Source of the DNA: Gemmatimonadota bacterium | GTDB taxonomy: Bacteria; Gemmatimonadota; Gemmatimonadetes; Gemmatimonadales; GWC2-71-9 | Assembly: GCA_003169895.1 (NCBI GenBank) | Contig: PNAE01000008.1 | Span: forward strand, 1 to 64,000 | Direction: 5' to 3' | Length of the DNA: 64,000 nt | In this document: positions 24,835-51,887 of the stretch, piece after piece | Layout: each line of letters starts with the position of its first letter | Position numbering within the stretch: position 1 is the stretch's first letter | The notes under the pieces: generated by a model | Told to the model about the DNA's origin: nothing | The model's database searches: none | The model's input: the letters and a program-made list of their open reading frames with translations, nothing else | Position numbers and translations under genes: made by a program

Positions 24835-26091
24835 ATGACGGAGTTCCCTGCGTCCAGCGACTACGCGGCCGAGGCAGTGCGGGTCCGCGAACGGTTCGAA
24901 CGGGTTCTCGCCGCGGCCATCGCGATCTCCGCCGAACATTCGCTGGCTGCTGTTCTGCAGCGGGTGGTCGATTCAGCCCGTGACGTGGTGGGCGCACGGT
25001 ATGCCGCCCTCGGCGTGCTGGATGAGCGCGGGGAATTACTCGTCGAGTTCGTGACTTCGGGGATGACGCGCGAGTTGCGGCGGAAGATCGGCGACCTGCC
25101 CCGTGGGCACGGCCTGCTGGGCGCGTTGATTCGCGATGCCCGGCCACTGCGCACCGCCGACATCAACACCCATCCGCTCCGTTCCGGGTTTCCACCCCGC
25201 CACCCGCCGATGCAGTCGTTTCTGGGCGTGCCGATCGTCTCACGCAACCGGGTGTTCGGCAACCTGTATCTCACCGACAAGCTGGGCCAGCCGGAGTTCG
25301 GCGTCGAGGACGAGCAGATCGCGGTCCTGCTCGCGGCGCACGCCGCAGTCGCGGTGGAGAACGCCCGGCTGTTCGAGGAAAGCCAGCGGCTCGTCGCCCA
25401 GGTTCAGTCGATGCAGCGCCAGCGCGATCTGTTCTTCGCGATGATGAATCACGAGCTGCGCAACGCGCTCACCGGGGTCTACGGCTGGGCCGAGCTGCTG
25501 GTCCGCGGCAAGCCGAGAGACGCAGTCCCGCAGGAGGCGCGCGAAGTATACGAAGCGGCTGAACGGACGATCGAACTGCTGAACAACTTTCTTGACCTGA
25601 CGCGACTCGACGCCGGGAAGGTGAGGCCCGTGTTTCGCGACGTCGAGGCGCTGACATCGATCGAGCGAGCCTTCGCCTCCGTCAGCCCGAGCGCGACTGC
25701 CAAGGATATCTCGCTGGAGCATCGCGGCGAGGCCGCCTCGGTCGTGCTCCGGACCGACCCGGTGCGCCTGGAGCAGATCCTGCTCAACCTGCTGTCTAAC
25801 GCGGTCCGGCACAGCATGGCCGCCGTGCCGGTAACGGTCGACGTGACCCGGGCCGATCGCTGGGTCCAGTTCCGCGTGACCGACCGCGGCCCCGGGGTGC
25901 CGGCGGGCCTGGTCGAGCGAATTTTCGAGCCGTTCGAGCGGTTCGATCCTCATTCCGGCTTGGGTACCGGCCTCGGGTTGCCGGTATCGCGCCGGCTTGC
26001 CGAGGTCCTCGGCGGAAGCCTCCGGGTGGAGCGCGCCGACAGCACCGGATCGACGTTCCTGCTGGAACTGCCCGTCGACGCAGATGGGTGA
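24835..26091 (+). CDS. GAF-domain histidine kinase resembling DosS/DevS sensors
   Basis: 418 aa, no membrane segment. A GAF domain spans residues 30-175; the stretch GFPPRHPPMQSFLGVPI and the LYLTDK strand closely follow the GAF-A domain of DosS/DosT, where the His of the HPPM motif (His123 here) is the heme ligand. HisKA has phospho-His206 in MMNHELRNAL, and HATPase_c has LLNLLSNAVRHS, DRGPGVP and GTGLGLPVS. A heme-based O2/NO/CO or redox sensor is inferred from the motif. It is followed by its likely partner regulator at 26149. Confidence 0.88.
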   Translation: MTEFPASSDYAAEAVRVRERFERVLAAAIAISAEHSLAAVLQRVVDSARDVVGARYAALGVLDERGELLVEFVTSGMTRELRRKIGDLPRGHGLLGALIRDARPLRTADINTHPLRSGFPPRHPPMQSFLGVPIVSRNRVFGNLYLTDKLGQPEFGVEDEQIAVLLAAHAAVAVENARLFEESQRLVAQVQSMQRQRDLFFAMMNHELRNALTGVYGWAELLVRGKPRDAVPQEAREVYEAAERTIELLNNFLDLTRLDAGKVRPVFRDVEALTSIERAFASVSPSATAKDISLEHRGEAASVVLRTDPVRLEQILLNLLSNAVRHSMAAVPVTVDVTRADRWVQFRVTDRGPGVPAGLVERIFEPFERFDPHSGLGTGLGLPVSRRLAEVLGGSLRVERADSTGSTFLLELPVDADG

Positions 26092-26148: not shown

Positions 26149-26832
26149 ATGAGGATTCTCGTCGTGGAGGACGACCGGAAGGTCGCGGGCTTCATTGCGC
26201 AGGGGCTGCGCGAAGAAGGGTACGTCGTGGATCACGCGCCGGACGGCGACCAGGCAACGATGCTGGCGCACGTCAACAGTTACGACGTGATCCTGCTCGA
26301 CCTGATGCTGCCGAAGAAGAATGGCCTGCAGATCGCCGCCGAGCTGCGGCGCGAAGGGCGCCAGACACCGATCCTGATGCTGACGGCCCGGGACGCCACC
26401 GAAGATGTGGTGCGCGGTCTCAACGCGGGCGCCGACGACTATCTCGCCAAGCCGTTCAAGTTCGACGAGCTGCTGGCCCGGGTGCGGGCGTTGGTCCGTC
26501 GCGGTGGCGCGGCGCGCACCGAGCTGCTGTCGCACGGCCCAATCGAGCTCGACCGCGTCAAGCACAAGACCAAGGTATACGGCAAGCCGGTTGACCTGAC
26601 GCCCAAGGAATTCCAGCTGCTGGAGCATCTGCTGCTGCACCGGGGTGAAGTGGTCCGGCGCACCGACCTGCTGGAGAAGGTGTGGGACCTGTCGTTCGAC
26701 CCGGAGACGAACGTGGTCGACGTGCACGTCGCGAACCTGCGGCGCAAGCTGCGCCGTGCAGCGAGCATGGACCTGATCCACACGATCCGGGGCGTGGGTT
26801 ACCAATTGGGCGGCGACGCCGCCCTGGTCTGA
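26149..26832 (+). CDS. OmpR/PhoB-family response regulator
   Basis: 227 aa from ATG 26149. The receiver (1-120) has Glu-Asp-Asp in VVEDDRK, phospho-Asp in LLDLMLP, Thr in MLTARD and Lys in YLAKPFK. The winged-helix DNA-binding domain (125-225) includes LTPKEFQLLEHLLLHRGEVVRRTDLLEKVWD and VVDVHVANLRRKL. Partner of the upstream GAF kinase. Repeats matching its expected operator form precede it and the neighbouring cytochrome genes. Confidence 0.95.
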   Translation: MRILVVEDDRKVAGFIAQGLREEGYVVDHAPDGDQATMLAHVNSYDVILLDLMLPKKNGLQIAAELRREGRQTPILMLTARDATEDVVRGLNAGADDYLAKPFKFDELLARVRALVRRGGAARTELLSHGPIELDRVKHKTKVYGKPVDLTPKEFQLLEHLLLHRGEVVRRTDLLEKVWDLSFDPETNVVDVHVANLRRKLRRAASMDLIHTIRGVGYQLGGDAALV

Positions 26833-26944: not shown

Positions 26945-28336
26945 ATGCTGGCTCTGTATCTGATCCTCACTGCCTCCCCGCCCGTGCGAGACCTGACGGA
27001 TCATGGTCCTGCACGCCGGGACGTCACGCCCGCCATGGTCCGGTCATATATCAACAACCGTACGGCAGGGTGGAGTGCACACGCGGCAACGACCCCGGGT
27101 TTCGCCCGCCAGACCGGGCTCGCGTGCAGTGCATGCCACACCGCCTTTCCCGGGCTCACCGCGACGGGCCGAGCCTTCAAGCTCAACGGCTACGTCTATC
27201 GGCAGGCAGACTCGCTGCAGGGCCTGAACCCGGCGGGTAAACAGGACCTGGCGTTGAACCTCAACATGCCGCTCGCCGCCATGTTCCAGACCTCCTTCAC
27301 CAGCACGAGCAAGGCGCAGCCTGGAGCGCAAAGCACGACGGTGTTCTTCCCGGATCAGATCAGCCTGTTTGCCGGCGGTGAGGTGACCCCTCATCTGGGC
27401 GGATTCCTGCAACTGACCTTCGACCCGCAGAGCGGAGGCTTCGGCGTTGACAACACGGACTTCCGGTATGTGAGCCACACGACCATGTTCGGCCAGCACG
27501 CGACGTACGGCGTGAGCCTCAACAACAATCCCACGGTGCAGGACCTCTGGAACAGCACGCCGGCCTGGGGTTTTCCATACGGCAGCTCCGCGGCGGCGCC
27601 CTCGCCGGCCGCGAGCACCCTGATCGACGGCAACCTGGGTCAGCAGGTCGCCGGCCTGACGGGCTACACGATGCTGGGCGACCATCTGTACCTGGAGTTT
27701 GGCGGCTATACCGCCGCGCCGGTCGGGCTCAACCGGCCGCTCGACTCGACTGCAGCCGGCGTCATGCGTGGTGTCGCGCCGTACTGGCGCGTGGCCCTGC
27801 CGCTGACCTTCGGCAATCAGTACCTGTCGATCGGCACCTACGGCATGGCGGCGCAGCTGTATCCTGCTGGCGTGACGGGGCCGACCAACCGGTTTACCGA
27901 TGTGGCCGCCGACCTGAGTTACTTCGTACCGATCGGCACGAACAGCTTTTCGGCCAATGCGACGTTGATCCATGAGTCACAGCGGTGGGACGCCGGCGGA
28001 TCCGCCAATCTGCAGAATACACTCACCACGTTCCGGTTCGACGCGGCGTATCATCTCGGTCATCAGTATGCCTTTACCGTGGCGCCGTTCACCACGACCG
28101 GGACGGCAGACACACTGTTGTACGCCCCTGGGACCATGACAGGCAGTCGCACCGGACAACCGAACAGCAGCGGGTTGATCGCGGAAGTCGACATCATGCC
28201 TTGGCAGAACCTGCGCCTGCAGTTCCAGTATACCGCTTACGGCAACTTCAATGGTGCGACGACAAACTACGACGGGTTCGGTCGGAACGCATCGCACAAC
28301 AACACTTTCTACTTCCTCACCTGGATCCTGTTCTGA
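26945..28336 (+). CDS. Cyc2-like fused cytochrome-porin
   Basis: 463 aa from ATG 26945, with GAGAGGAG upstream. Residues 47-65 read AATTPGFARQTGLACSACH, which fits the diagnostic A-x3-P-x-FARQTG-x2-CxxCH N-terminus of Cyc2 iron-oxidising outer-membrane cytochromes. It is a single-heme head followed by about 380 residues of amphipathic strands (HLGGFLQLTFD, YLEFGGYTAAP, YAFTVAPFTTTG) ending FYFLTWILF with a terminal Phe, as in outer-membrane barrels. In Cyc2 the plugged barrel passes electrons from external Fe(II) to the periplasm. Substrate here is unproven; related barrels of unknown role share the heme head. The signal peptide is atypical (no basic n-region). Confidence 0.75.
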   Translation: MLALYLILTASPPVRDLTDHGPARRDVTPAMVRSYINNRTAGWSAHAATTPGFARQTGLACSACHTAFPGLTATGRAFKLNGYVYRQADSLQGLNPAGKQDLALNLNMPLAAMFQTSFTSTSKAQPGAQSTTVFFPDQISLFAGGEVTPHLGGFLQLTFDPQSGGFGVDNTDFRYVSHTTMFGQHATYGVSLNNNPTVQDLWNSTPAWGFPYGSSAAAPSPAASTLIDGNLGQQVAGLTGYTMLGDHLYLEFGGYTAAPVGLNRPLDSTAAGVMRGVAPYWRVALPLTFGNQYLSIGTYGMAAQLYPAGVTGPTNRFTDVAADLSYFVPIGTNSFSANATLIHESQRWDAGGSANLQNTLTTFRFDAAYHLGHQYAFTVAPFTTTGTADTLLYAPGTMTGSRTGQPNSSGLIAEVDIMPWQNLRLQFQYTAYGNFNGATTNYDGFGRNASHNNTFYFLTWILF

Positions 28337-28802: not shown

Positions 28803-30260
28803 TTACGGTGACGCGAGCCGCCGCGGAATCGCGGTGCCATGACACGCGATGCAGAGCTGCGGGTTCTTTCGCAGCATCCGCTCCGGGTCGAATCCGGGGC
28901 CATGGGGATCGAACGAGCGTCCTTTCACCACTGAATGACAGGTGAGACAATCGCGCTCGACGTGACACGAGACGCAGCTCTCCAGCGCTTGGCGCGCCGC
29001 CTGCCCATGACCGAGGAAGAACTGCCGGTTGCCGTCGTGATACCCGGCCGCACCGATCAGCGTGCGTCGAGCGGTGAGGCCCCCCTGCTTGTGACAGGTC
29101 TGGCAGAATTCGCCCGTATTGTGACAGTCGGTGCATGAACTCGACCGGGTGTACGCGTCGGCAGGATGCCGGGCGAGATACGCGCCGGGGTGATAGCTGC
29201 CGCGGCGCGCCGGATCGGGCACGTGACAGGTGAGGCACTCGGTGCGCGCGTGGCAGCTCGTGCAGGAGCGCAGCGTCGACGCCGCAACCGATCCGTGTTG
29301 CGTCTTCCATCCGGCCGTATGACTCGCCGGCATCCGCAGTGCGGTCTGGGCCCCCGGCGCGCGTCCCGGGCCCGCACGATAGAGTGCCAGCACGGCAGTC
29401 GGCGCCTCCGCCCGGTGACAGGTCAGGCAGCTTTCCTGCGTGTGACAGCTGCGACAGCTGGCTCCGGTGCGGCCGGCGAGTGCGCCATGCTGCGACTCGA
29501 AATTTTTCGCCGCGTGTGTCGGCGGTGCCTTCAGTGCGTGAGGCAGCGCCAGCGACCGCTTGTCCAATTCGAGCGCCTGGATCACGGGCAACTCGGGGGC
29601 ATTCACGTGGCATGCCACGCAGAACTCGCGCGCGTGGCATGTAGCGCAGCTTTGCGCCACGCGTGCGCCGCCGATCGTGTGTCGCGCCTGGGCGCCGTGC
29701 CCCGCGGCCGTTATGAATCCTGGCGCCTGATGGGTTGGCGGTGCGGGGAACCCCGCGATCCGCGCGGTCGGCAGCGTCACGGCGCGCGCGAGCGTCAGGT
29801 GACAGGTCGCACAGGCGGTGTCGGCCAGCGTCAGGTGTGTGCCGAGGCCGCTCGTGTGACACGCAACGCATTGCGGCGCGGTCGGCGCCCTGACAGCCAT
29901 CCAGGCGGCGCCGCGGTCAGCATGACAATCCGCACAGCCACTGGTATCGCCGCGTTGGCGTCGAACCTCGGCATGCTGGACGTGATCGAACCGCAGGTTG
30001 GAGATACGCGGGCCGGCGCGCGGTTGCCAGTCGACGCGGCGTTGAACGGTACCGTCGTGACAGGTGGTGCATGCCGCAGCCGGCGGAAACACCGGTGCAC
30101 CGGACCGCATGATTCCCGCATGACAGGTGGCGCAGCCCACGAAGAGCTTGGCGTGTTGCGCGTGGTTGAAGCGCGGCTGCTGCTGCAGCGCCACACCCGA
30201 CGCGACCGCCACAACCGAGCCGAGCAGCACCAGCGTGCCACGCAGGACGCGGCGAGTCAT
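28803..30260 (-). CDS. Periplasmic 16-heme c-type cytochrome
   Basis: 485 aa, overlapping the upstream barrel gene as ATGA. Signal peptide MTRRVLRGTLVLLGSVVAVASGVA. I count sixteen CxxCH motifs spread evenly from CATCH near residue 43 to CIACH near the C-terminus, with many extra His for bis-His ligation. No catalytic motif (such as nitrite-reductase CxxCK) is seen, so it is probably an electron carrier. Last gene of the 35370-28803 operon; with the barrel it could form a porin-cytochrome conduit. Confidence 0.88.
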   Translation of the reverse strand: MTRRVLRGTLVLLGSVVAVASGVALQQQPRFNHAQHAKLFVGCATCHAGIMRSGAPVFPPAAACTTCHDGTVQRRVDWQPRAGPRISNLRFDHVQHAEVRRQRGDTSGCADCHADRGAAWMAVRAPTAPQCVACHTSGLGTHLTLADTACATCHLTLARAVTLPTARIAGFPAPPTHQAPGFITAAGHGAQARHTIGGARVAQSCATCHAREFCVACHVNAPELPVIQALELDKRSLALPHALKAPPTHAAKNFESQHGALAGRTGASCRSCHTQESCLTCHRAEAPTAVLALYRAGPGRAPGAQTALRMPASHTAGWKTQHGSVAASTLRSCTSCHARTECLTCHVPDPARRGSYHPGAYLARHPADAYTRSSSCTDCHNTGEFCQTCHKQGGLTARRTLIGAAGYHDGNRQFFLGHGQAARQALESCVSCHVERDCLTCHSVVKGRSFDPHGPGFDPERMLRKNPQLCIACHGTAIPRRLASP

Positions 30261-31753
30261 GGTGCTGCTCCCGCCGGCCGTGCCGGAGGCAGCCAGCGGT
30301 CAGCAGCCGAGCGCAGCGTGAGCGACGCGCGCGCGCTCAGGCGCCATTGGTTCCAGTCGATTGCCGCCGCGTCCGGCCGGTCCTGCGACTCCCAATACCG
30401 GTCGACCCCAACGTCGAGTCGCCACCGCTCGCCGACACGATAGGCGGCGGAGGCGCCGGCATAGGTCACGCCGGCATCCTGGAACCGCAGCTCCAGGGGG
30501 CGTTCAAGGTTGCCGCCGTCGAGTGAAAGGTCGAACGCCGCGTGCGGACGCCATGTGACTCGGCCATCGATGCCGCTCGACGAGGCACCGGGCTGCAACT
30601 CGCCGTGCGTGTCGATTTCCACCGTCCATCGTTCCGCTGGCGCGAGCGTACCCTCCAGTGCCCAGCGCCAACCCCGATCCTCCAGCGTGACGCTGGGCGT
30701 GCTGACGTCGGCCGCATCATAGCGGAACCATTCAGCTCGCGAGCGGACTTGCAGCTTCGCCGTCGGATTCACGGCGATCGAACCGCTGATACCGTTGAAC
30801 GGCACCGGGCTGAAGACGCCCCATACGGTCCACAAGTCGAAGAACGGGCGATAGTGTCGTGCGGTAATCGTGCCCGACACCCGCAACCCGCTGTAGCTGG
30901 CCGATGCCTCGGCACTCCCCCACTGACCCTGGGCGATGTCGTAATCGGCGCCGGTCACGAACCGGATGTGCCGCTCCGGTCTGGCCTGCAAGCTCACCGC
31001 GGCGCGCTCCGCGACGATATAGTCGGTGACCGGGTCGAGCTCCCGCCGATACTCGGCTTGCACGTCAACGGCGGGTAGGTGCGCACCGACGACCGTGCCG
31101 ACGACGATCTGGCGGCTGGACGGCTGATAATCCGCGAGCGGGTCGACTGCGGGGCTCGTCACCGGCAAGATGGTCCCACGCGCCATACCCCATCCGGCGT
31201 AGCCGCCTACCTCCAGCGCGTCGCGGTTGAAGCGCCAGGTAGCGCGCAAACCATCGAGCCCGCTGGTGCCGACGCTCGCGAGCCGGCCGCGATCGAGCAT
31301 GCGGCCCAGTTGCGCGGTGAGGCCACCGCGCAGGTACTCGGCGTACCCCTCCATCAGATTGAATGGCGGCGACGTACCCGGCCAGACACGGTCGCCGCCC
31401 AGATCGGTGTAGCCGCGCGCGCTGAGCCGCACGCTCAAGCCCTGCAACCCGAGTCCCCACAGCGACAGGTCGACGCCGGCGCTGGCCGGCAGGCCGTTCA
31501 GCACCGGACCGGGCCGGAAAAAATAGCAGAAGCCATTGCCGGCGCAGTTGACCGCGAATCCGTCGGGTGTCACCGGACCAGCGGTCGCGCTGGTGACCGC
31601 GCCGGATTCCGCGATGCTGTCGGCCGTGAGTCCGCGAAACTCGACATGCTGCGCCGAGGCGTTGAGGCGCAGGGACCACGATTGCGCGGCGACCGGCCCG
31701 GCCGCCAGTGATGCGGCCACGGCGATCAGCAGGGCGCGCCCGGTCCGCGTCAT
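30257..31753 (-). CDS. Outer-membrane beta-barrel of porin-cytochrome type
   Basis: 498 aa, coupled by ATGA overlaps to cytochrome genes on both sides. Signal peptide ending AAGPVAAQS. The mature chain is a run of amphipathic strands (LWGLGLQGLSVRLSARGYTDLG, LEVGGYAGWGMA, WRLDVGVDRYWES) without heme motifs, consistent with a barrel of roughly 20 or more strands. Sandwiched between multiheme cytochromes it is positioned like MtrB/PioB/OmbB-type conduit barrels, though I cannot show homology to any of them. Confidence 0.75.
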   Translation of the reverse strand: MTRTGRALLIAVAASLAAGPVAAQSWSLRLNASAQHVEFRGLTADSIAESGAVTSATAGPVTPDGFAVNCAGNGFCYFFRPGPVLNGLPASAGVDLSLWGLGLQGLSVRLSARGYTDLGGDRVWPGTSPPFNLMEGYAEYLRGGLTAQLGRMLDRGRLASVGTSGLDGLRATWRFNRDALEVGGYAGWGMARGTILPVTSPAVDPLADYQPSSRQIVVGTVVGAHLPAVDVQAEYRRELDPVTDYIVAERAAVSLQARPERHIRFVTGADYDIAQGQWGSAEASASYSGLRVSGTITARHYRPFFDLWTVWGVFSPVPFNGISGSIAVNPTAKLQVRSRAEWFRYDAADVSTPSVTLEDRGWRWALEGTLAPAERWTVEIDTHGELQPGASSSGIDGRVTWRPHAAFDLSLDGGNLERPLELRFQDAGVTYAGASAAYRVGERWRLDVGVDRYWESQDRPDAAAIDWNQWRLSARASLTLRSAADRWLPPARPAGAAP

Positions 31754-33756
31754 TCAGTGCCAGCCTTCATCAGACGAGGCTGGAATTCCGCCGGCGTCGC
31801 GAGGAAATGACACGTCGTGCACTCACGTCCCGGCAAGTGCGCCTGCTGCGCGGCGTGGCACGTGAGGCAGAACGTCCGGCTCGGCGTGAGTGCCGCGATT
31901 CGCGATGGCGTGTGACATTCATCGCAACCGACGTGGGTGGTGCGTGAATGTGCCGGCGGCGTTTCAGGTCGATTATGGCATGCGGTGCAGGTCCGCTGCG
32001 CTTCGTGGTGCTGGGCATGACACGCCTGACAGGAACGGATGCTGTCGGGGGGCACGATATTCGGCGGCTGATGGCACGCGGCGCACGGCGTCTGCTGATG
32101 CACCTCGTGCCGGAAGCCGACCGTGCGCGCAACCGGCGGCTTGCCGGCCACGCCTACGCCCACGATCATCGGCCGCACTGCCGCCAGCTTCGCTGCCGTG
32201 TGACACCGGGAACAGTCGGTCGCGGTCACCGTTCCGGCCATGAGCGATTGATGATGGCAGAGATCGCAGCCGCGGGGCACTTCGAACACGAGGCGGTTCC
32301 CCGTGTTGACCGCGTGACAGGTGAGGCAAGGGAGTGACGTATGACGGCTGTGGGGGAAGGAGTCTGCGGGGGGGCCGGCGCGAACGATGGGCGAATCGCG
32401 CGACGGCGGCTGCTCCGGCAAGGCATCCCCCTTGCCCCGGTGGTCCGGTACGGTTTCAGCTGCATGCTCGAGCAGTGATTGCGTTGCCGCACCGGCAATC
32501 CGCCGCCGTAGCACGGCAGCGGTGTCGAACGGCAGCGGCGGATGGAACTGGCCGCGGCGTTGCACTGCCGTGTGACACCCCACGCAGTCGGATGCGTCCA
32601 CCGACGCCGCGTGCGGCTCGTGGCACACCAGGCACTGGGCCGCCGCTCGGCGATGATTCGCGCCACTGTGGAAGGGGTTCTGCGCGACGGCCGCGTGGCA
32701 CTTGACACACGACGTGCGCGCGTCGGTCGCCTTGGTGTCGGTATGCACGTCGTGGCACGATCCGCACGAGCCCTTGTGCGGATCCTTGTCCGCCACGTAG
32801 CCGGATGGCCGCCCCTGCATGCCGTGGCAACTGAGACACTGGCTCTTCGCCGGTACCAGCGCCCGCACCGCGGAGTCGTGCGTTGCCAGCCCCGGCAGGT
32901 CGGCGCGGAACGCGTGGCAAGTCACGCAGCTGATGGTCGGCAGTTTGGTCATCCCGGCTAGCCGCACCGATTGCTGCTCGTGACAGCCGCTCTGCTGGCA
33001 GGTGCGATTCGACGGGATGAAGTGGTGAATCTCGGCGCCGTGGCACTTGACGCAGGTGAGTCGGCGCAGCACCGCCGAATCGGACTCGAAATGCACGCGG
33101 TGGCCGGCCAGTCGCAGCGCGTGTTGCCACGGCTCGCGACCGCCGACCACCTGGTGGCAACTCTCGCACCGGGAGTTGGGCACCGGTGCGTGCTTGCCGA
33201 TATCGTTGGGCCGGTTGGCGACCCAGAGCACCAGCTGCCGCCCGCTGGCGAAGATCGACTGCTGGTGGCAGTCGTGGCACTTGCGGTCCTCATGCTTCCC
33301 GGCAAACTGCTCGAAGCGTCCGAATGGCCGCTCCATCACGTGGCAGCCGGTGCAGAAGCCGTTGTCGTGCTGCATGTAGTCCCAACTCTTCTTGCCGGCA
33401 AACGCCGCGGCGCATACTAGCAGCAGCGCCGAACCGGCCAGCGTCAGCTGGATCTGGCGGCTGCGGGCGCGCAGCCAGCCAACGATCCGGGCCCGGCGGG
33501 TCCAGAGCAGCCCGACCACGACGATGCCGACCACCACCGCCAGGATGGCGCCGCCGATCTGGACCCAGCGCGGCACGCCGAATATGGTCCGCACCATGAT
33601 CGCCACGCCGCCAGGGAGCGGCGGCGTCGTGACAGTGTCGCGGATCGAACCGGCGGCGGCGGCCAGGGTATCCTGGACGCGAAAAAGCGTGTCCCTCGGA
33701 ATGGTGGTTACCCCACTCCGAGGGACCTGCTGGATCAGCGCCAGGAGGCTCAGCAT
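31750..33756 (-). CDS. NapC/NrfH-like quinol dehydrogenase fused to multiheme array (20 heme sites)
   Basis: 668 aa from ATG 33756 (GTG 33759 possible). Two membrane helices lie at about residues 65-120. Next comes a NapC/NirT-like segment (FCTGCHVMERPFGRFEQFAGKHEDRKCHDCH). Counting on, there are nineteen CxxCH motifs plus one CxxxCH (CQQSGCH). NapC/CymA proteins oxidise quinol with four or five hemes; here that head seems fused to some 15 further hemes. The fusion would let one inner-membrane protein pass electrons across the periplasm. A Pro-rich gap near residues 415-450 separates two heme blocks. Confidence 0.85.
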   Translation of the reverse strand: MLSLLALIQQVPRSGVTTIPRDTLFRVQDTLAAAAGSIRDTVTTPPLPGGVAIMVRTIFGVPRWVQIGGAILAVVVGIVVVGLLWTRRARIVGWLRARSRQIQLTLAGSALLLVCAAAFAGKKSWDYMQHDNGFCTGCHVMERPFGRFEQFAGKHEDRKCHDCHQQSIFASGRQLVLWVANRPNDIGKHAPVPNSRCESCHQVVGGREPWQHALRLAGHRVHFESDSAVLRRLTCVKCHGAEIHHFIPSNRTCQQSGCHEQQSVRLAGMTKLPTISCVTCHAFRADLPGLATHDSAVRALVPAKSQCLSCHGMQGRPSGYVADKDPHKGSCGSCHDVHTDTKATDARTSCVKCHAAVAQNPFHSGANHRRAAAQCLVCHEPHAASVDASDCVGCHTAVQRRGQFHPPLPFDTAAVLRRRIAGAATQSLLEHAAETVPDHRGKGDALPEQPPSRDSPIVRAGPPADSFPHSRHTSLPCLTCHAVNTGNRLVFEVPRGCDLCHHQSLMAGTVTATDCSRCHTAAKLAAVRPMIVGVGVAGKPPVARTVGFRHEVHQQTPCAACHQPPNIVPPDSIRSCQACHAQHHEAQRTCTACHNRPETPPAHSRTTHVGCDECHTPSRIAALTPSRTFCLTCHAAQQAHLPGRECTTCHFLATPAEFQPRLMKAGTE

Positions 33757-33792
33757 CACACCGCGAAAGTTATTTCATCGCCGATATATTCC

Positions 33793-35370
33793 CTACTGCG
33801 CCCGAACGAAGCCTGGCGAGCGCGCCTTGGCGTCACTGAGCGCCTTGACCACCTGGGCTTCGACCGATACCGGCGGCGCCGGGAGGGCATAGGTACTCTG
33901 CAGTTCAGTGATATTGGCGGCCAGCAGCGCCCGGGCCAGGAACGGATTGTGGACGCCCAGCGACTTGTCGCCGTTGGCGAAACGCCCCTCACCGAACAGG
34001 TCCACGTTGAACCACGCACCCTGCGCGGGCGTCACTTTCGTCGTGCTCGTCAACTCGGCCGGGTGGTCGCGCTTGATGATGGCGAGATACCCGGCGTCCG
34101 TCGGCGCCGCGTCGATCGCGCCGTTGTGATTGGAATCGATCCAGATCTGGTCCGCCAGGATTGCAATGTCCGATCGGATTTGGCCCAGGAGCGACGCAGC
34201 AACAGCCTGACTGCCGTGGCAACCGGACGCGGTGCAGGCGGCGAATGTCCGCGCCGTTGAAGTGAAGGCACAAGTGGTGTCGCCCGTGGGCTTGCCGTTC
34301 GCGTCGATACAGGGAATCGGCTGGAAGCTGTGCCCGGTCGAGTGGAACACAAAGCCGCCGGTGGCCGCATCGGTGACGTCGAACGCGTTGACGTGGCAGC
34401 CGGCACAGAGTTTCGGATTGGCCAGGCTGGCGTGCGTGGTGAGCGCGATCAGCGTGTCGACCGCAACGCCGGCCGGGCGATATCCGCCGGTTCCCAGCAA
34501 TACGAAGCCCTGCGGCGCATGGGGCGTCGAAGTGCCGGGCACCGGCTCACCGCGGCGCAGATGGCACTTCATGCACAGGTTCTGATCCGGATCAGGATTG
34601 TCGATCGGGAATCGGAGCTGGTGGCTGTTCGATGAGCCGTGCGGATTGTGGCAGACCGCACAAACCACCGCGGAGTAGCCGGTCGAGTCGCGCTCGCTGT
34701 AGTTGGTCGACACACCCCACGCCGTGAGCACCGTCTTGCCGTCGTGACAGTTCTTGCAGACGACGTTCGAGTTATTGACCGCCGGAGCCACAATGTTGGC
34801 ATGCCCGCTCGTGGCCCACTCCTCGGCAAACGGCTCGTGCACGCCGGTGTGGCATGCGGCACAACTGGCACTGGCGTTGGTCAGCGTCAGCCTGGCCAGC
34901 GGCCAGTTGGCCTTGTTGTCCGGCAGCGATACGTGCTTGGTCCCGGGACCGTGACAGCTCTCGCATTGGACATCCTGATAGGCGCTGTCGGGCTTGGTGC
35001 TCCACCCGGCGGGCGCCGCCAGTCCGTTCCCGTTTTCCGACACCGTGTGACAGGCGTAGCAGCTGCTGGTCGCGTGGCCGCTAGCCACCAGGTCCGAGAA
35101 GGCCTTGGCGTGATGGGTCTGCGACCAATCCTGTTGATGGCCGGCGTGGCAGTTGCCGCAGGTTGTCTGCTTGGTGCTGACCGTGTAGTAGCCGAGCAAG
35201 CCACTCGCAGCGTCGGGAGGCGCATTGAACGGTGCCCGGTCGCGGTAAACGATTTCGCTCGACGTGCAGGCAGTGAGCACCAGCACGAAAGCGGTGGCGG
35301 CGAAGACCCAGCGTCGGCGTACGACGCCTCCGGCTCGGGAATCGTTTGGTAGCTGGGGTGCGCGGGTCAT
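33793..35370 (-). CDS. Nine-heme c-type cytochrome lipoprotein
   Basis: 525 aa from ATG 35370, with GGGGG upstream; GTG 35397 is the other option. Lipobox FVLVLTAC. Eight CxxCH motifs and one CxxxxCH (CTASGCH). Heme spacing and segments such as CESCHGPGTKHV and CAVCHNPHGSSNSHQLRFP resemble cytochromes of the NrfB/DmsE and cytochrome c-554 fold group. The C-terminal 150 residues lack hemes and include a calcium-loop-like WIDSNHNGAIDAAPTD. First gene of the operon; lipidation allows placement on the outer membrane. Confidence 0.85.
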   Translation of the reverse strand: MTRAPQLPNDSRAGGVVRRRWVFAATAFVLVLTACTSSEIVYRDRAPFNAPPDAASGLLGYYTVSTKQTTCGNCHAGHQQDWSQTHHAKAFSDLVASGHATSSCYACHTVSENGNGLAAPAGWSTKPDSAYQDVQCESCHGPGTKHVSLPDNKANWPLARLTLTNASASCAACHTGVHEPFAEEWATSGHANIVAPAVNNSNVVCKNCHDGKTVLTAWGVSTNYSERDSTGYSAVVCAVCHNPHGSSNSHQLRFPIDNPDPDQNLCMKCHLRRGEPVPGTSTPHAPQGFVLLGTGGYRPAGVAVDTLIALTTHASLANPKLCAGCHVNAFDVTDAATGGFVFHSTGHSFQPIPCIDANGKPTGDTTCAFTSTARTFAACTASGCHGSQAVAASLLGQIRSDIAILADQIWIDSNHNGAIDAAPTDAGYLAIIKRDHPAELTSTTKVTPAQGAWFNVDLFGEGRFANGDKSLGVHNPFLARALLAANITELQSTYALPAPPVSVEAQVVKALSDAKARSPGFVRAQ

Positions 35371-35665: not shown

Positions 35666-37600
35666 TTACATGGAGCGCGCCGCGCGCAGCGCATTCACGA
35701 TGACCGCGACGTCGACCGCCTCTTGCAGGATCGCGCCAACCGCCGGCGGAATCATGCCGAACATCGCGAACCCCATCGCGATGCCGCTGAGTACCAGGCC
35801 GCCCCAGATGCTCTGGCGCGCGATCCGCATGGTGCGGCGGCTGATGTCGATGGCTTCCGCGAGTCGCGACGGATCGTCGCCGAGGATGACCGCGTCCGCG
35901 GCCTCCGCGGTGATGCCGCTGCCGCCGCTGGCGAGCGCGACGCCGACCGTGGCCGCACTCAGCGCCGGTGCGTCATTGGTGCCGTCGCCGACCATGACCA
36001 CGCGTTCCCCGTTGCGCATCAGCGCCTCGACCGTGGCCACCTTGTCCTCCGGCAGGAGGTCGCCGTGCGCCTCGTCAATGCCGACTGCGTCGGCGATCCC
36101 ATCGACATTCGCTTGTGCGTCGCCGCTCAACAGCAGGACCCGGCGGATGCCTGACTGGCGCAGGCGATCGATGAACCGCGGCATGCCGACGCGAGCACGG
36201 TCGGCATACTCGATGACCGCCGCGGCGTGACCGTCGATGGTGACGAAGGCGCGCAGTCCGGCGTTGGCCCCCGACAATCGTGCGAACTCCGCATGCGACC
36301 CCGGATGCGCCGCGATGACGAAACTCAGCGCGCCCACCCTGATCGTGCGACCGTCGACCCGGCCGGTGACTCCCGCCCCTGGCGATTCCACCACGTCGAC
36401 CGCCAGCGGGGGCTTCAGCTCTGCGCGGCTTGCCGCCTCGACCAGCGTGCGCGCGAGCAGGTGGCCGGAGCCCTGTTCCACCGCGGCGGCGATCCGCAGG
36501 ACGGTGTCGCCGTCCCATCCCGGTGCGGGTATCACTCTGGACACCTGCGGCTTGCCGAGCGTCAGCGTGCCCGTCTTGTCGAAGACCACGATCGTGGCGT
36601 GCCCCATCTGTTCGAGCGCGCTGCCACGCCGAATGACCACGTGACGCCTCGCCATCTGGTTGATCCCGGCCACGATTGCGATCGGCGTGGCGAGAATCAG
36701 TGGGCACGGTGTCGCAACCACCAGGACGGCGAGGACTCGAATCGGGTCCTGGGTCACGAGATACGTCAGGGCGCAGACGGCGAGCGTGAGCGGCGTGAAC
36801 CAGATGGCGTACCGATCGGCAAGCCGCTGCAGGGGCGCCTTGCTGGCCTGGGCATTGCGGACCAGCTCCACGATGCGGTGATACTGACTTTCCGCCGCTG
36901 GTGCCGTTGCCCGTAACGTCAGCGGGCCCTCGAGGTTGAGCGCTCCGCCCATGAGCGGCACGCCGGGCCCGGCGCTGATCGGGACAGGTTCTCCGGTCAT
37001 GGTCGATGCGTCGACGTGTGACTGCCCAGCCGTCACGGTCGCGTCGCACGGGATCATCTCGCCCGGCCGGACCAGCAAGGTATCGCCCACGACGATCGTG
37101 TCGACGGTGAGATCGGTCACGACGTCGTCACGTATCCGATGGGCCCAGCGTGGTGCCGCGGCCTCGAGGTCGCGCAGCGCGCGCGACGCACGACCTTCCG
37201 CGATGCGCTCCAGCGCTTCGCCGCCGGTCTGCATCACGACGATCACGAGTCCCGCGAACGACTGGTCGAGCGCGAACGCCATGATGATCGCGAAGGAAGC
37301 GACGAGGTCCGCGGCAAGGCGCCCGGCCGCGACGCCGGCCAGGGTGCGCACGACGACCACGCCGCCGAGGAGTCCCAATCCCCACCGCCAGATCGTGTCG
37401 GCCGTCGCCGGGTCGCGCCCGCCAAACCGCACGGCGGCGCCGACCGCGAGGAACGCGATGGCTGCGCCGACACGCAGCAACGTAATGGGAGAACTGCCGG
37501 TCAGTATCCGGCCCGGACGGTGCGGGGGCTTGGCCCCCGGCGGAATCACCGGCGCCACGGGAGCATCACGGTGACGGTCAGCAGAGCTGCGCCGGATCAC
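35666..37600 (-). CDS. P1B-type heavy-metal-transporting ATPase with TPC motif
   Basis: 644 aa. Contains membrane-site motif TPCPLILATP, phosphorylation motif DKTGTLT, an SGHL-like sequence (GSGHLLA) at the nucleotide-binding domain, and GDGTNDAPAL. No N-terminal metal-binding domain; the N-terminus is a basic, proline-rich cytoplasmic tail. TPC at the transport site differs from CPC (Cu/Zn/Cd) and SPC (Co/Fe) pumps; family knowledge links TPC forms to Ni or Fe export, but specificity is not certain. Start overlaps the preceding gene (ATGA), indicating a coupled operon. Confidence 0.88.
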   Translation of the reverse strand: MIRRSSADRHRDAPVAPVIPPGAKPPHRPGRILTGSSPITLLRVGAAIAFLAVGAAVRFGGRDPATADTIWRWGLGLLGGVVVVRTLAGVAAGRLAADLVASFAIIMAFALDQSFAGLVIVVMQTGGEALERIAEGRASRALRDLEAAAPRWAHRIRDDVVTDLTVDTIVVGDTLLVRPGEMIPCDATVTAGQSHVDASTMTGEPVPISAGPGVPLMGGALNLEGPLTLRATAPAAESQYHRIVELVRNAQASKAPLQRLADRYAIWFTPLTLAVCALTYLVTQDPIRVLAVLVVATPCPLILATPIAIVAGINQMARRHVVIRRGSALEQMGHATIVVFDKTGTLTLGKPQVSRVIPAPGWDGDTVLRIAAAVEQGSGHLLARTLVEAASRAELKPPLAVDVVESPGAGVTGRVDGRTIRVGALSFVIAAHPGSHAEFARLSGANAGLRAFVTIDGHAAAVIEYADRARVGMPRFIDRLRQSGIRRVLLLSGDAQANVDGIADAVGIDEAHGDLLPEDKVATVEALMRNGERVVMVGDGTNDAPALSAATVGVALASGGSGITAEAADAVILGDDPSRLAEAIDISRRTMRIARQSIWGGLVLSGIAMGFAMFGMIPPAVGAILQEAVDVAVIVNALRAARSM

Positions 37601-46789: not shown

Positions 46790-47338
46790 TCATCCGGCGG
46801 GCGCCTCCCGCACGATCCTCAGGCGTGCACCATCGGCGCTCGCATCGCCCCGCTCGACCCGCCATCCCTGCTGCGCGAGCAGCGCGTCGAGGATCGGCGG
46901 ATCGAACGGCAGCATCACCTCGAACGGTGTGTCATCGCGCGTAATCCGCGCCAGAATCGCCACCAGCGGTTCTGGCGGCGGCAGGTGCCGCAAGTCGATC
47001 ACTCCCGCCGGCACCAATGCGGCTGCCAGCGACCTCGCAGGGGCGGCCGGAGCCGGCGGCGACTCACTGCGCCAGAACCATGACGACCAGTCATCGTCGG
47101 CATATGACTCGGTGTGGTGCGCGAACCCGTGCTGCGACAACACGTAGAAGAGCGGAGCCGGCTCGAACGGTGTGCGCAAGTGCAACACGCCCCCGGCCGG
47201 GAGGGCGCCGGCGACGGTGAGAATGCGCGCCAGCGGTTCGCGTCCCGACCGCAGGTCGTCGCGCACATCGAGGTCGGTGAGGACCGCGGGATCGAAGTCG
47301 GGCAGGGAATCGGTGCCCGCAGTGCCAGGTTCCGTCAC
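46790..47338 (-). CDS. DUF2249 domain protein
   Basis: 182 aa from GTG 47338. Two DUF2249/SirA-like halves: DLDVRDDLRSGREPLARILTVAGALPAGGVLHLRTPFEPAPLFYVL, then VIDLRHLPPPEPLVAILARI. These TusA-fold proteins are common near denitrification and Crp/Fnr genes; molecular role unproven. Lies between nirK and the Crp/Fnr gene, same strand. Confidence 0.75.
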   Translation of the reverse strand: MTEPGTAGTDSLPDFDPAVLTDLDVRDDLRSGREPLARILTVAGALPAGGVLHLRTPFEPAPLFYVLSQHGFAHHTESYADDDWSSWFWRSESPPAPAAPARSLAAALVPAGVIDLRHLPPPEPLVAILARITRDDTPFEVMLPFDPPILDALLAQQGWRVERGDASADGARLRIVREAPAG

Positions 47339-47384
47339 ACAGTCAACTTCACCGGTCGGCGGCCGACGCGCCGTGACGGATGTC

Positions 47385-48083
47385 TCACTCGCCGCCCCCG
47401 CGCGCCCACGCGCGCAGGCGCTCCGCCGGTGCCAGCAGCAAGCGCATTCCCGTCTGCTTCCTGATCAATCCGCGCACCTTCAGCTGCTTCATCGCGCGCG
47501 ATACCGATTCCCGGGCCGTGCCGATCTCCGCGGCCAGCTCCTCCTGGGTTCGCTCGAGATCCAGCGCCACGCCGTCGCCTTCCGGTTGCCCACGGCGCTC
47601 GGCGTGGTCGGCCAGCAGCATCGCGAGCCGCGCGGCGACGTCGCGAAAGGCGAGCGTCTCCACCAGCTGCACCATGTGCCGCAGCCGGACGCCCAGCGCA
47701 CGCACGACACTGGCGGCGACGTCGGGATCGGTGCGGAATGCGTGCTCGAATTCCCCGCGCGGCAGGAACATGAGCCGGCTGGGTGCGGTCGTCACCGCAG
47801 TCGCGGGGTACGGCCCGCCGTCGAAGAGTGGCAACTCCGCGACTGGCCTGCCGGGACCTTCCACGGCGAGCGTCTGCTCCCGGCCGTCGGGCGACGTCCG
47901 GTAGATGCGGACGCGACCCTCGAGCACGACGTACAGTCCGGTGCACCGCTCGCCGGCGTGGAACAGCATGAATCCCGCGCCCACGGCGCGCGGGACGCAA
48001 CGAGACGCCAGCCGCTCCAGCACGGCGTCGCCGAGGCCGTCGAAGATTGGCACGTTGCGGAGCAAAGCGGCGAGGGCACTCAT
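47385..48083 (-). CDS. Crp/Fnr-family transcription regulator
   Basis: 232 aa from ATG 48083 (a TTG at 48119 would add 12 atypical residues). A cyclic-nucleotide-binding-type barrel (residues 10-120) and C-terminal winged helix with EELAAEIGTARESVSRAMKQLKVRGLI. The recognition helix has the E-x2-SR residues that read TGTGA/TTGAT half-sites. It lacks the N-terminal cysteine cluster of Fnr, so it resembles Dnr/NnrR-type NO regulators or Crp. A palindrome lies just upstream. Confidence 0.88.
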   Translation of the reverse strand: MSALAALLRNVPIFDGLGDAVLERLASRCVPRAVGAGFMLFHAGERCTGLYVVLEGRVRIYRTSPDGREQTLAVEGPGRPVAELPLFDGGPYPATAVTTAPSRLMFLPRGEFEHAFRTDPDVAASVVRALGVRLRHMVQLVETLAFRDVAARLAMLLADHAERRGQPEGDGVALDLERTQEELAAEIGTARESVSRAMKQLKVRGLIRKQTGMRLLLAPAERLRAWARGGGE

Positions 48084-48111
48084 GCAGCCAATCAAGCGCC
48101 GGAGGAGCCGG

Positions 48112-48127
48112 CGTGACAAGCGTCACA
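48112..48127. promoter_or_regulatory. Crp/Fnr-type palindrome between regulator and cupin genes
   Basis: CGTGACAAGCGTCACA, one mismatch from TGTGA-N6-TCACA. It is 29 nt from the regulator ATG and 56 nt from the cupin ATG, so could serve both divergent genes. Nearly the same core (TGACAAnCGTCAC) is found before nosZ. Confidence 0.7.
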
Positions 48128-48182
48128 GCGAGGGAGCGATCCCCAGCGGCATCATCCCCTGGTCCCGATTCGAGGAATGCCC

Positions 48183-48506
48183 ATGCCGTCACCTTCTTCT
48201 CCGCCCGAAGCTCCGATCATGGGCCGTCCAGCCGTCTCCGACGTCGAGCACGGGTTGCATGGCCGTCATTTCACCGTTCGCTTCGAGCCTGGTCAACGGC
48301 TACCGCCGCACCGCAACCCGGCGCGGGTCGTGATCACCGCGGTGGAAGGCGGCGGCGACATCACGATCGCCGGGCACGGCATGCGATGCCTGCCCCGCGG
48401 CACCGTGGTGCAGCTCGATCCGGATGTCGAGCACTCGGTCGTCGCCGGGGAACACGGCCTCGAACTGCTGGTGCAGCTGATCGCCAACTGCTGCGAGCAT
48501 TGCTGA
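48183..48506 (+). CDS. Small cupin protein
   Basis: 107 aa from ATG 48183, with GAGG eight bases upstream. A cupin barrel: FTVRFEPGQRLPPHRNPARVVITAVEGGGDITIAGH, LPRGTVVQLDPDVEHSVVAGEHGLELLVQLI. His of PPHRNP and EHS are in metal-ligand positions. Ends in a CCEHC cluster that could bind metal. Overlaps the next gene. Role unknown; divergent from the Crp/Fnr gene. Confidence 0.75.
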   Translation: MPSPSSPPEAPIMGRPAVSDVEHGLHGRHFTVRFEPGQRLPPHRNPARVVITAVEGGGDITIAGHGMRCLPRGTVVQLDPDVEHSVVAGEHGLELLVQLIANCCEHC

Positions 48507-48979
48507 TGGAACGCTACGTCCTGCGCTTCCTGCGCGCCTCGCTCGCGTGGCTTGTGGCCGGTGTCACGCTCGGTGTCGCGATGGCGGTCCACCCGGCCTG
48601 GGCGATCTATCGCACCGCGCACCTGCACATGCTCCTGCTGGGATTCGTCGTGATGATGATCGCCGGCGTGGCGTACCACGTGATGCCGCGCTTCGCCGCG
48701 ACACCGTTGCACAGTCCGCGGGTCGCGTCGTGGCACTTCGTCGCCGCGAATGTCGGCCTGGCGCTGCTCGCGTCGGGGTTCATCGTCCGATTCCACGCCG
48801 CGACCGCCGGCGCCTGGCTCCTTGGTATCGGCGGCACACTGAGCGCCGCCGGTGCCTATGCGCTGGTGTGGAACCTCTGGCGCACGCTCGACCACGCCGC
48901 GGTCCCGCCCACGCAGCTGGTGCGGCCGGTGCGGCCGGTGCGGCCGCTTCGGGTAGCGGACCAGGCGGCGGCGCGGTGA
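48506..48979 (+). CDS. Four-helix membrane protein related to heme-copper oxidase subunit I / NnrS type
   Basis: 157 aa from ATG 48506, overlapping the cupin stop. Four membrane segments with histidines placed as in the first helices of oxidase/NO-reductase subunit I: HLHMLLLGFVVMMIAGVAYHVMPRF. Much shorter than a catalytic subunit, so not an oxidase by itself; it might bind heme or copper. The C-terminus has a VRPVRPVRP repeat. Located between the NO-type regulator and nosZ. Confidence 0.65.
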   Translation: MERYVLRFLRASLAWLVAGVTLGVAMAVHPAWAIYRTAHLHMLLLGFVVMMIAGVAYHVMPRFAATPLHSPRVASWHFVAANVGLALLASGFIVRFHAATAGAWLLGIGGTLSAAGAYALVWNLWRTLDHAAVPPTQLVRPVRPVRPLRVADQAAAR

Positions 48980-49027
48980 CGTGGCGCGCACGCGGTCGAC
49001 CAGAGATGAAGACCGCGTCATCCTGCA

Positions 49028-49103
49028 TTCAAGCTGGATTCATGAATATCGCGCAAACTTCGGTCGTGCTCCAATGGAGTCAGCGCCTGTGACAATCGTC
49101 ACG
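49028..49103 (+). promoter_or_regulatory. nosZ upstream region: Crp/Fnr palindrome and TTCA repeats
   Basis: TGTGACAATCGTCACG (49088-49103) matches TGTGA-N6-TCACA with one mismatch and shares its core with the site at 48112. TTCAAGCTGGA and TTCATGAATAT (49028-49049) form a weaker 11-bp-spaced pair like those near the cytochrome genes. No gene between 48980 and 49229. Confidence 0.6.
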
Positions 49104-49229
49104 GTGCCCGGCCGCTGAAGCAGTGAGAATAATGGTGTGCCCCCGCGACGGCGGTGCGGCACGGTGCGCGGCGGAACCGGTTGCCGCGCGTAGACTGGCC
49201 CCGCAAGGGCCCAATTGCACGAGGCTGGC

Positions 49230-51257
49230 ATGTCGCATCGAATCAGTGGTCGGATCGCAATCGTGGCTGCCGCGGTATTGGCCGGTGCGTGCGGGACACC
49301 GCAGCCGCAGGCTCTCGTAACCGGGGACGCGGCGCAGAAGGTCTACGTCGCCCCAGGCCACTATGACGAGTTCTACGCCTTCCTCTCCGGCGGATACAGC
49401 GGCAACGTGTCGGTGTACGGTCTGCCGTCGGGACGGATGCTCAAGATCATCCCGGTGTTCTCCCAGTTTCCCGAGAACGGCTACGGCTACACCCAGGAAA
49501 CCAAGGCGATGCTGCAGACCACCTTCGGCGAAGTGCCCTGGGACGACACCCACCACGCCGAACTGTCGCAGACCAACGGTGTTCCGGACGGGCGCTGGCT
49601 GTTCATCAACGGCAACAATACGCCGCGGATTGCCCGGATCGACCTGACACGCTTCGAGACCGACGAGATCATCCAGATTCCGAACTCCGCCGGCGGGCAC
49701 GCCGCGCCGTTTACCACGGGCAACTCCGAGTACGTCGTCTCGGCGACGCGCTTCTCGGTGCCGATTCCCAACGGCGACGTACCGATCGAGGACTTCAAGA
49801 CCCGCTTCAAGGGAACCATCTCGTTCATCCGGGCCGACCAGCCCGGCAAGATGGACATCGCGTTCCAGATTCTCATGCCGGGATACGACTACGATCTCGG
49901 CCACGCCGGCAAGGGGCCGTCGGACGGCTGGTTCTTCTTCAGCAGCTACGACACCGAGCAGGCGTACTCCAAGCTCGAGATGAATGCGTCGAAAAATGAC
50001 AAGGATTTCATCGCGGCGGTACACTGGAAGCTTGCCGAACAGTGCGTCAAGGACGGCAAGGCCAAGCCAATGCCGTCAGCCTACGTCCACAACTACGTCG
50101 ATGAGAAGACGCGCATCGCCGTCAGCGAACGGAAGACGAGCGTACTGGTGCTCGAGCCGTCGGCATGCCCCGGGGTGGTGTACTTCCTGCCGACGCCCAA
50201 GTCGCCGCACGGCGTGGATGTCGATCCCACCGGGGAATACATCGTCGCGGGCGGTAAGCTGGCCACGGTGATCCCGGTGCACTCGTTCTCCAAGCTGCAG
50301 AAGGCGATCGCCGACAAGGCGTTCGACGGCGACCTGGCGGGCATTCCCATCCTCAAGTACGAATCGGTACTGGCCGGGGAGGTGCAGAAGCCGGGGCTGG
50401 GGCCGCTGCACACCGAGTTCGACGGCAAGGGCTACGCGTACACCTCGATGTTCATCTCCTCGGAAGTGGTGAAGTGGAAGCTCGGGACGTGGGAAGTGGT
50501 CGATCGCATCCCGGTGTACTACTCCATCGGTCACCTGATGATTCCCGGCGGCGATTCGAAGCAGCCGTGGGGCAAGTACCTGCTGGCGATGGACAAGATC
50601 ACCAAGGACCGCTACCTGCCGACCGGGCCCGAGCTGGCGCAATCGGCGCAGCTGATCGACATCACCGGCGGGAAGATGAAGTTGCTGCTCGACTTCCCCA
50701 CCACCGGTGAGCCGCATTATGCGCAGGCGCTGCCGGCGGCGATGATCAAGGAGAAGCAGGTCAAGTTCTTCTCGCTCGCGAACAATGCCAATCCCTACGT
50801 CACGCGTTCGGAGGCCGACGGCGGCATCGAGCGGAAAGGCAGGGCCATCCACGTCAAGATGATCGCCATCCGCAGCCACTTCGCGCCCGACAACCTCGAG
50901 GGCGTGCAGCTCGGCGACACGGTCTACTTCCACGTCACCAACATCGAGCAGGATTGGGATATTGTGCACGGATTCGCGCTGCTCGGCATGAACACGGCGA
51001 ACTTGATCCTCCTGCCGGGAGACACGCGCACGCTGAGGTGGGTGCCGCAGGCGGTGGGCGTGTACCCGTTCTACTGCACGGATTTCTGCAGCGCGTTGCA
51101 CCAGGAAATGCAGGGATACATCCGGGTGAGCCCGCTGGGGAGCAATGTGGCGCTACGGGCCAACATTTCGCCGCGCGCCGCGACGCAGGAAGCCCGCAAG
51201 GTCGGGTTGCTGTCGCCCGCGTCCGGCGACCACATGCAGCACGCCGGGAATCAGTGA
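49230..51257 (+). CDS. nosZ: Nitrous-oxide reductase, clade II type, lipoprotein signal
   Basis: 675 aa from ATG 49230, with GAGG upstream. The signal is Sec-type ending VLAGAC with Cys21, a lipobox, instead of the twin-arginine signal of clade I. CuZ-site His108/His109 are in WDDTHHAEL, and further His motifs include KSPHGVDVDPTG and HTEFDGKGYAYT. The CuA site in the C-terminal cupredoxin domain is FYCTDFCSALHQEMQGY (Cys616, Cys620, His624, Met627). Reduces N2O to N2. Being lipidated would tether the enzyme. First gene of a nosZ-x-nosD-nosF-nosY unit. Confidence 0.96.
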   Translation: MSHRISGRIAIVAAAVLAGACGTPQPQALVTGDAAQKVYVAPGHYDEFYAFLSGGYSGNVSVYGLPSGRMLKIIPVFSQFPENGYGYTQETKAMLQTTFGEVPWDDTHHAELSQTNGVPDGRWLFINGNNTPRIARIDLTRFETDEIIQIPNSAGGHAAPFTTGNSEYVVSATRFSVPIPNGDVPIEDFKTRFKGTISFIRADQPGKMDIAFQILMPGYDYDLGHAGKGPSDGWFFFSSYDTEQAYSKLEMNASKNDKDFIAAVHWKLAEQCVKDGKAKPMPSAYVHNYVDEKTRIAVSERKTSVLVLEPSACPGVVYFLPTPKSPHGVDVDPTGEYIVAGGKLATVIPVHSFSKLQKAIADKAFDGDLAGIPILKYESVLAGEVQKPGLGPLHTEFDGKGYAYTSMFISSEVVKWKLGTWEVVDRIPVYYSIGHLMIPGGDSKQPWGKYLLAMDKITKDRYLPTGPELAQSAQLIDITGGKMKLLLDFPTTGEPHYAQALPAAMIKEKQVKFFSLANNANPYVTRSEADGGIERKGRAIHVKMIAIRSHFAPDNLEGVQLGDTVYFHVTNIEQDWDIVHGFALLGMNTANLILLPGDTRTLRWVPQAVGVYPFYCTDFCSALHQEMQGYIRVSPLGSNVALRANISPRAATQEARKVGLLSPASGDHMQHAGNQ

Positions 51258-51259
51258 CC

Positions 51260-51886: not shown

Positions 51887-51887
51887 C

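Follow-up and report, generated by a model that had tools for sequence, protein, structure and literature searches.

Trans-envelope electron conduits such as MtrCAB with CymA in Shewanella, and likewise PioAB/MtoAB, divide the labour among a quinol dehydrogenase, a periplasmic cytochrome, an outer-membrane barrel, and an outer cytochrome. The porin-cytochrome (Pcc) clusters of Geobacter (OmbB-OmaB-OmcB) similarly hold a barrel gene beside that of a periplasmic multiheme cytochrome, with a lipoprotein outer cytochrome and associated membrane and periplasmic cytochromes (PMC4245776). The Gemmatimonadota are frequently found in soil, sediment, and freshwater habitats and are almost entirely uncultured; the literature searched reports only one MtrCAB, from a Gemmatimonas metagenome-assembled genome (MAG) (PMC8805035), and one CbcL-type and two ImcH homologs from the phylum (PMC6295460). 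Here we describe an operon of four genes, designated D, C, B, and A, in the first 64,000 nucleotides of contig PNAE01000008.1 (the window) from the Gemmatimonadota assembly GCA_003169895.1. Very probably, its products form a porin-cytochrome conduit that carries electrons through the cell envelope, and they would share the division of labour outlined above. Compared with the Geobacter clusters, whose cytochromes carry 8 and 12 hemes, A has 16 and D has 9, the lipoprotein gene comes first, and the gene of the putative quinol dehydrogenase lies inside the operon. Compared with MtrCAB and PioAB/MtoAB, B is not an MtrB/PioB protein, A is an HmcA/c7-like protein with 16 hemes rather than a decaheme MtrA (MtrA being partly related to D), and C has 20 hemes against four in CymA.

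The minus strand contains all four genes, transcribed in the order D-C-B-A (Table 1). Their 9, 20, 0, and 16 heme motifs amount to 45 sites, which confirms the count given in the initial annotation, a reading of the window made from the sequence. The genes likely form an operon because C and B, as well as B and A, overlap by 4 base pairs (bp) and the gap between D and C is only 33 bp. The numbers of CXXCH motifs are far above chance, as shuffles of the same proteins contained 0.04–0.19 on average and 4 at the maximum. Promoter and terminator scans at both operon ends revealed nothing above chance.

Table 1. Coordinates of the operon, its sequence features, and other loci discussed in the text (window positions unless a locus is named).
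Feature	Position	Strand	Description
Gene D	33793..35370	-	Nonaheme lipoprotein cytochrome, 525 aa from ATG; 8 CXXCH + 1 CX4CH
Gene D, alternative start	35397	-	GTG
Lipobox of D	35266..35277	-	LTAC with lipid-anchor Cys, from sequence
Gene C	31750..33759	-	Membrane-anchored 20-heme cytochrome, 669 aa; 19 CXXCH + 1 CX4CH
NrfH-like segment of C	33259..33435	-	Residues 109-167: second hydrophobic helix, first hemes, CTGCHVM
Gene B	30257..31753	-	Predicted outer-membrane beta-barrel, 498 aa; no heme sites
Invariant Cys pair of B	31526..31546	-	C70 and C76, possible disulfide; in all 36 aligned orthologs
Gene A	28803..30260	-	Exported 16-heme cytochrome, 485 aa; 16 CXXCH
Diheme repeats of A	28935..29648	-	Five tandem units, residues 205-442
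Cyc2-like gene	26945-28336	+	Fused monoheme cytochrome-porin, 463 aa, PGFARQT...CSACH...PGL; convergent with the operon
GAF-histidine kinase and response regulator	24835-26091, 26149-26832		Directly before the Cyc2-like gene
Nitrous-oxide reductase cluster	46790-54618		NosZ, NosD, ABC ATPase, Crp-type regulator, DUF2249 protein
Distant cluster L159	4019-11435		18-heme, 4-heme c554-like, barrel, 14-heme A-like, and 6-heme proteins in a row
Distant cluster L160	3482-10850		As in L159

The barrel gene B adjoins the gene of an exported multiheme cytochrome, A, which is the architecture of a porin-cytochrome system, and the two are an almost inseparable pair. B was detected in 59 of 200 sampled genomes of the phylum and in 44 of 93 genera. 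Named contigs with relatives of the operon are almost all Gemmatimonadota MAGs, and the closest of them (L072, JANYLJ010000055.1, ‘Gemmatimonadetes bacterium’) has an identical gene order and a D protein 75% identical to that of the window genome (3.42 Mb, 98% complete). At 40 distinct loci selected by B alone, A is adjacent in 38, D lies upstream in 31, C lies upstream in 27, and the set is complete in 23; the barrel keeps A even where C and D are missing. The initial annotation had proposed such a neighbourhood survey, and conserved co-occurrence was indeed found. A larger set comprised 78 distinct B loci, part of which were picked via D and are thus biased for D. Counting only loci with room on the contig, A lies downstream of B in 66 of 69, C upstream in 59 of 73, D upstream in 58 of 69, and all four genes occur in 42 of 61, and the open frames of B and A meet or overlap in every one of 69 loci. 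Records titled as Rhodothermia, Rhodothermaceae, and Omnitrophota contain a D-like gene, and B was not found in them; a tblastn search of plasmids with C gave no match. One contig titled Candidatus Kuenenia (L081, CALQGY020000021.1) carries B and a D approximately 52% identical to that of the window, and is probably a mis-binned Gemmatimonadota contig.

The AlphaFold model of B is a barrel of approximately 22–23 strands (mean predicted local distance difference test score, pLDDT, of 83.5), and the N-terminus resembles a signal peptide. Among the 36 aligned orthologs, 16 positions are invariant, including the cysteine pair. The barrel had initially been called MtrB-type, which did not hold: neither window B nor the 36 orthologs match the MtrB/PioB family (TIGR03509, PF11854), and profile comparison of B with the MtrB-type barrel of the window genome revealed no relation. 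Window B also has no match in Pfam or NCBIfam and no sequence match in PDB, and the few family matches among the orthologs are weak and mostly to generic outer-membrane barrels, including OMP_b-brl/Porin_4. Foldseek searches with the model of B returned only generic large barrels (porins, ushers, and receptors), with the FimD usher as the best match (template modelling score ~0.49). As compared with MtrB/PioB, Pfam, NCBIfam, and PDB, a comparison that did not extend to the OmbB/Ext porins, B appears to represent a distinct porin family. The generic matches of the model and of a few orthologs would also suit an ordinary nonspecific porin, in which case the cytochromes would store or conduct electrons within the periplasm and never pass them across the outer membrane. 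This is highly improbable given the constancy with which A follows B, the invariant positions with their cysteine pair, and a distant form of the B-A pairing in another phylum, which is described below.

The initial annotation placed A at the cell surface, but A is more likely the partner of the barrel, with D outermost. Relatives of A contain three to six diheme repeat units and 9–18 hemes, and the shortest of these (approximately 300–330 residues with 9–12 hemes) are near MtrA in size and still encoded directly behind B, for which reason A is assigned as the probable partner, or plug, of the barrel. By profile, A is partly HmcA/c7-like. The hexadecaheme cytochrome HmcA of Desulfovibrio likewise has 16 hemes and shows local similarity to A and to the C-terminal part of C, whereas A has five diheme repeats and is paired with a barrel instead of the Hmc membrane subunits. 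Membership of A in the HmcA family (22 bits, far short of the cut-off of 400) and in the decaheme MtrA family (16 hemes, and an E-value of only 0.075 for TIGR03508) was rejected. A structure search with the model of A gave nothing significant (best E-value 0.3), which is unsurprising because the model is heme-free and has a pLDDT of 70.

C begins with a hydrophobic region and an NrfH/NapC-type module, behind which approximately 16 further hemes follow. TIGR03153 matches the NrfH-like segment with an E-value of 4.3e-8, below the family cut-off, and in the match to the NrfH structure 2J7A (chain C; E-value 1.5e-11) both the helix and the FCxxCHxM first heme are aligned. C resembles the NrfH, NapC, and CymA quinol dehydrogenases in that a membrane anchor at the N-terminus is combined with a first heme of the CXXCHxM type, and differs in the additional hemes fused behind this module, which place it outside the usual tetraheme or pentaheme size of the NapC/NrfH family. 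The remainder of the protein resembles HmcA and c3/c7 cytochromes, the similarity to HmcA being local and in the C-terminal part. C is probably a quinol dehydrogenase with a built-in periplasmic wire. In the four-part scheme of the initial annotation, the periplasmic carrier was a part of its own; it seems instead to be fused into C.

Several lineages have other inner-membrane redox modules that replace or join C. A 19-heme protein with a cytochrome b561 domain is encoded directly before B in locus L132, and a similar module, judged by size and heme number, is present in L045, L046, L065, and L149. Loci L132, L142, and L126 encode a degenerate Rieske-like protein and cytochrome b together with 9-heme and 21–24-heme NapC-like proteins, while Rieske and cytochrome b genes directly precede C-B-A in L144. 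For fusions of a multiheme cytochrome with cytochrome b, as in the CbcL/MtoC/MtrH group, a role as quinone oxidoreductases in extracellular electron transfer has been proposed (PMC6295460). Fusions of this type, with cytochrome b561 or formate-dehydrogenase-gamma domains, precede the barrel in relatives, whereas the NrfH-type C holds that place in the window. That the quinone module varies while the B-A pair stays constant is, of all the circumstantial evidence, what speaks most strongly for a conduit.

D supplies the lipoprotein multiheme cytochrome of the cluster, with a lipobox and nine hemes. The lipobox is present in 85 of 107 D orthologs, and the residue after its cysteine is mostly T, V, or S, which under the +2 rule for lipoprotein sorting points to the outer membrane. 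The D profile matches 6QVM (E-value 2e-16), 6I5B (4.5e-14), and 6R2Q (2e-10), which we take to be OmhA, OcwA, and MtrA, respectively, the database titles being uninformative and that of 6R2Q chain A a misnomer. These matches place D in the c554/OcwA/octaheme superfamily, and D is probably the outer, surface cytochrome. Nine hemes are also found in OcwA of Thermincola, which has two penta-coordinate hemes and comes from a Gram-positive host without an outer membrane (PMC6703420). In D, the sequence shows a conserved distal histidine for every heme, and its gene belongs to an operon with a barrel.

Heme numbers are conserved among relatives, with nine for D in most cases (of 63 loci, 54 have 8+1 and four have 9+0), 20 for C in 51 of 60 (17+3, 18+2, or 19+1 of CXXCH and CX3-4CH motifs), and 16 for A in 53 of 69. 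Outside the heme motifs, D has nine conserved distal histidines and A has 16, in each case as many as there are hemes, and C has 19 that are invariant (21 when 85% conservation is required) along with the conserved residues Met142, Met270, and Met314 for its 20 hemes. The ortholog alignments revealed no heme without a conserved distal ligand in D, A, or C. This near one-to-one match favours electron wires over enzymes, with no obvious open catalytic heme, although such a heme cannot be judged by sequence alone, as OcwA also has enough histidines and yet two five-coordinate hemes (PMC6703420). The ligand counts bear on a second alternative, the periplasmic respiration of nitrogen or sulfur oxyanions by an NrfH module and a multiheme reductase, with an unrelated porin admitting the substrate. 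The NrfH module in C, the superfamily of D, the slow reduction of nitrite by OcwA (PMC6703420), and NapA-like genes adjoining the operon in some relatives would agree with such a system. It is nevertheless very unlikely, since a conserved distal histidine for every heme of D is unlike a catalytic heme, NrfA (PF02335) has no match in the window genome, NapA is neither conserved with the operon nor present beside it in the window, and the barrel stays with A where C and D are missing. The initial annotation would have yielded to a nonspecific porin together with cytochromes that match a known system for nitrite, sulfite, or tetrathionate; the cytochromes gave no match of this kind, and such a reductase is disfavoured by the ligand counts, the absent NrfA, and the family scans.

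As an electron conduit, the operon would begin in the inner membrane, where the NrfH-like module of C would oxidize quinol, or reduce quinone if the flow is reversed. The remaining hemes of C would serve as a wire into the periplasm, A would dock in barrel B and carry electrons over the outer membrane, and D would exchange them with an outside partner, which may be a mineral of Fe or Mn, a humic substance, a shuttle, or a second cell. Outward flow is probable, and the reverse could occur. NrfH/NapC modules usually oxidize quinol, which argues against a conduit run inward, in which Fe(II) or another extracellular donor would feed oxygen or nitrous-oxide respiration via D, B-A, and C to the quinone pool. 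On the other hand, the Cyc2-like gene adjoining the operon fits the published signature of PXFAR[QK][TY], CXXCH, and PXL (PMC8406198), except for A to T at the signature's first position, and keeps a role in Fe(II) uptake open. A cluster with NosZ and NosD lies approximately 12 kb from the operon, and known conduits can work in both directions (PMC8805035). However, the strict Cyc2 signature was present in only 1 of 120 related loci, and thus its link to the operon is not conserved, and the function of Cyc2 is uncertain outside proven iron oxidizers (PMC13264449). Inward operation is therefore rather unlikely.

Several points weigh against the conduit itself. C is missing beside B in approximately one third of the B-selected loci, the structure model of A has low confidence, and D could face the periplasm. 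Gene order is what places A inside the barrel, because B has no link to a characterised conduit porin. We infer where the proteins are located, including the fit of A inside B and the exposure of D at the surface, as well as the direction of flow and the substrate, from genes, profiles, and predicted structures, through which the conduit is known here. The parts of a quinol-to-surface conduit recognised by the initial annotation are supported by the NrfH/NapC module, the B-A pairing, the alternative quinone modules, and the likeness of D to surface and terminal cytochromes.

Among 296 genomes searched from the phylum to which the Rhodothermia-labelled locus L114 belongs, weak B matches occurred in two (E-values of 2e-7 and 4e-6). 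The 14-heme protein of the distant clusters (Table 1) matches the A profile at 120–123 bits, the N-terminus of the 6-heme protein is lipoprotein-like, and the 18-heme protein has a formate-dehydrogenase-gamma domain where scanned. Such complete porin-cytochrome clusters in another phylum suggest that the B-A pair is old. A Pcc cluster of Ignavibacteria has been published (PMC4245776) and may be the same as the distant clusters. We tentatively propose, as a plausible reading, that B-A may be an independently evolved trans-outer-membrane conduit lineage beside Mtr and the Geobacter Pcc, kept through Gemmatimonadota, in which the barrel partner would be tunable in length through its diheme repeats (9–18 hemes) and the quinol dehydrogenase would carry a periplasmic wire in the same protein.

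If the operon is a conduit, the presence of the barrel in approximately 30% of the sampled genomes would add much of the phylum to the candidate electroactive bacteria, and Gemmatimonadota may be able to pass electrons to or from minerals or other partners outside the cell. Searches that start from MtrB or Omb porins would miss the operon, which would offer three new designs: a family of porins, a wire fused to a quinol dehydrogenase, and a barrel partner built of repeats. No published description of a D-C-B-A operon was found in a literature search that left supplementary tables and most subscription papers aside. The operon may be listed unnamed somewhere, as homology-free surveys contain many unnamed multiheme clusters (PMC11475568; PMC13264449). 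The words ‘porin’ and ‘iron’ are absent from the main text of a phylum-wide survey of Gemmatimonadota genomes (PMC10581226).

The window genome also encodes a second candidate conduit of conventional type elsewhere (G000:C9, ~63000–68800; L153:5047-10815), which resembles clusters called PCC4. It comprises a Rieske protein, cytochrome b, a monoheme cytochrome c, a 10-heme MtrA/DmsE-like cytochrome, and an MtrB/PioB-family barrel, the last scoring 204 bits against that family, under the cut-off of 240. Beside the operon in relatives, CcmF/NrfE heme-lyase genes recur, which speaks for the conduit reading. A heavy-metal P-type ATPase is encoded just upstream of D in the window (35666-37600, minus strand), and at least five further loci (L032, L056, L061, L062, and L063) have a homolog of it close to the operon. 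A molybdoenzyme gene is located beside the operon in eight loci (L039, L040, L043, L079, L081, L085, L090, and L092) and is divergent in most; the two that were scanned are NapA-like nitrate reductases, and some of the eight also encode NrfD-like proteins. Genes resembling those of the hydrogenase maturation factors HypB, HypD, HypE, and HypF, recognised by eye only, occur near the operon in L047, L048, L049, L050, L051, L089, L117, and L144.

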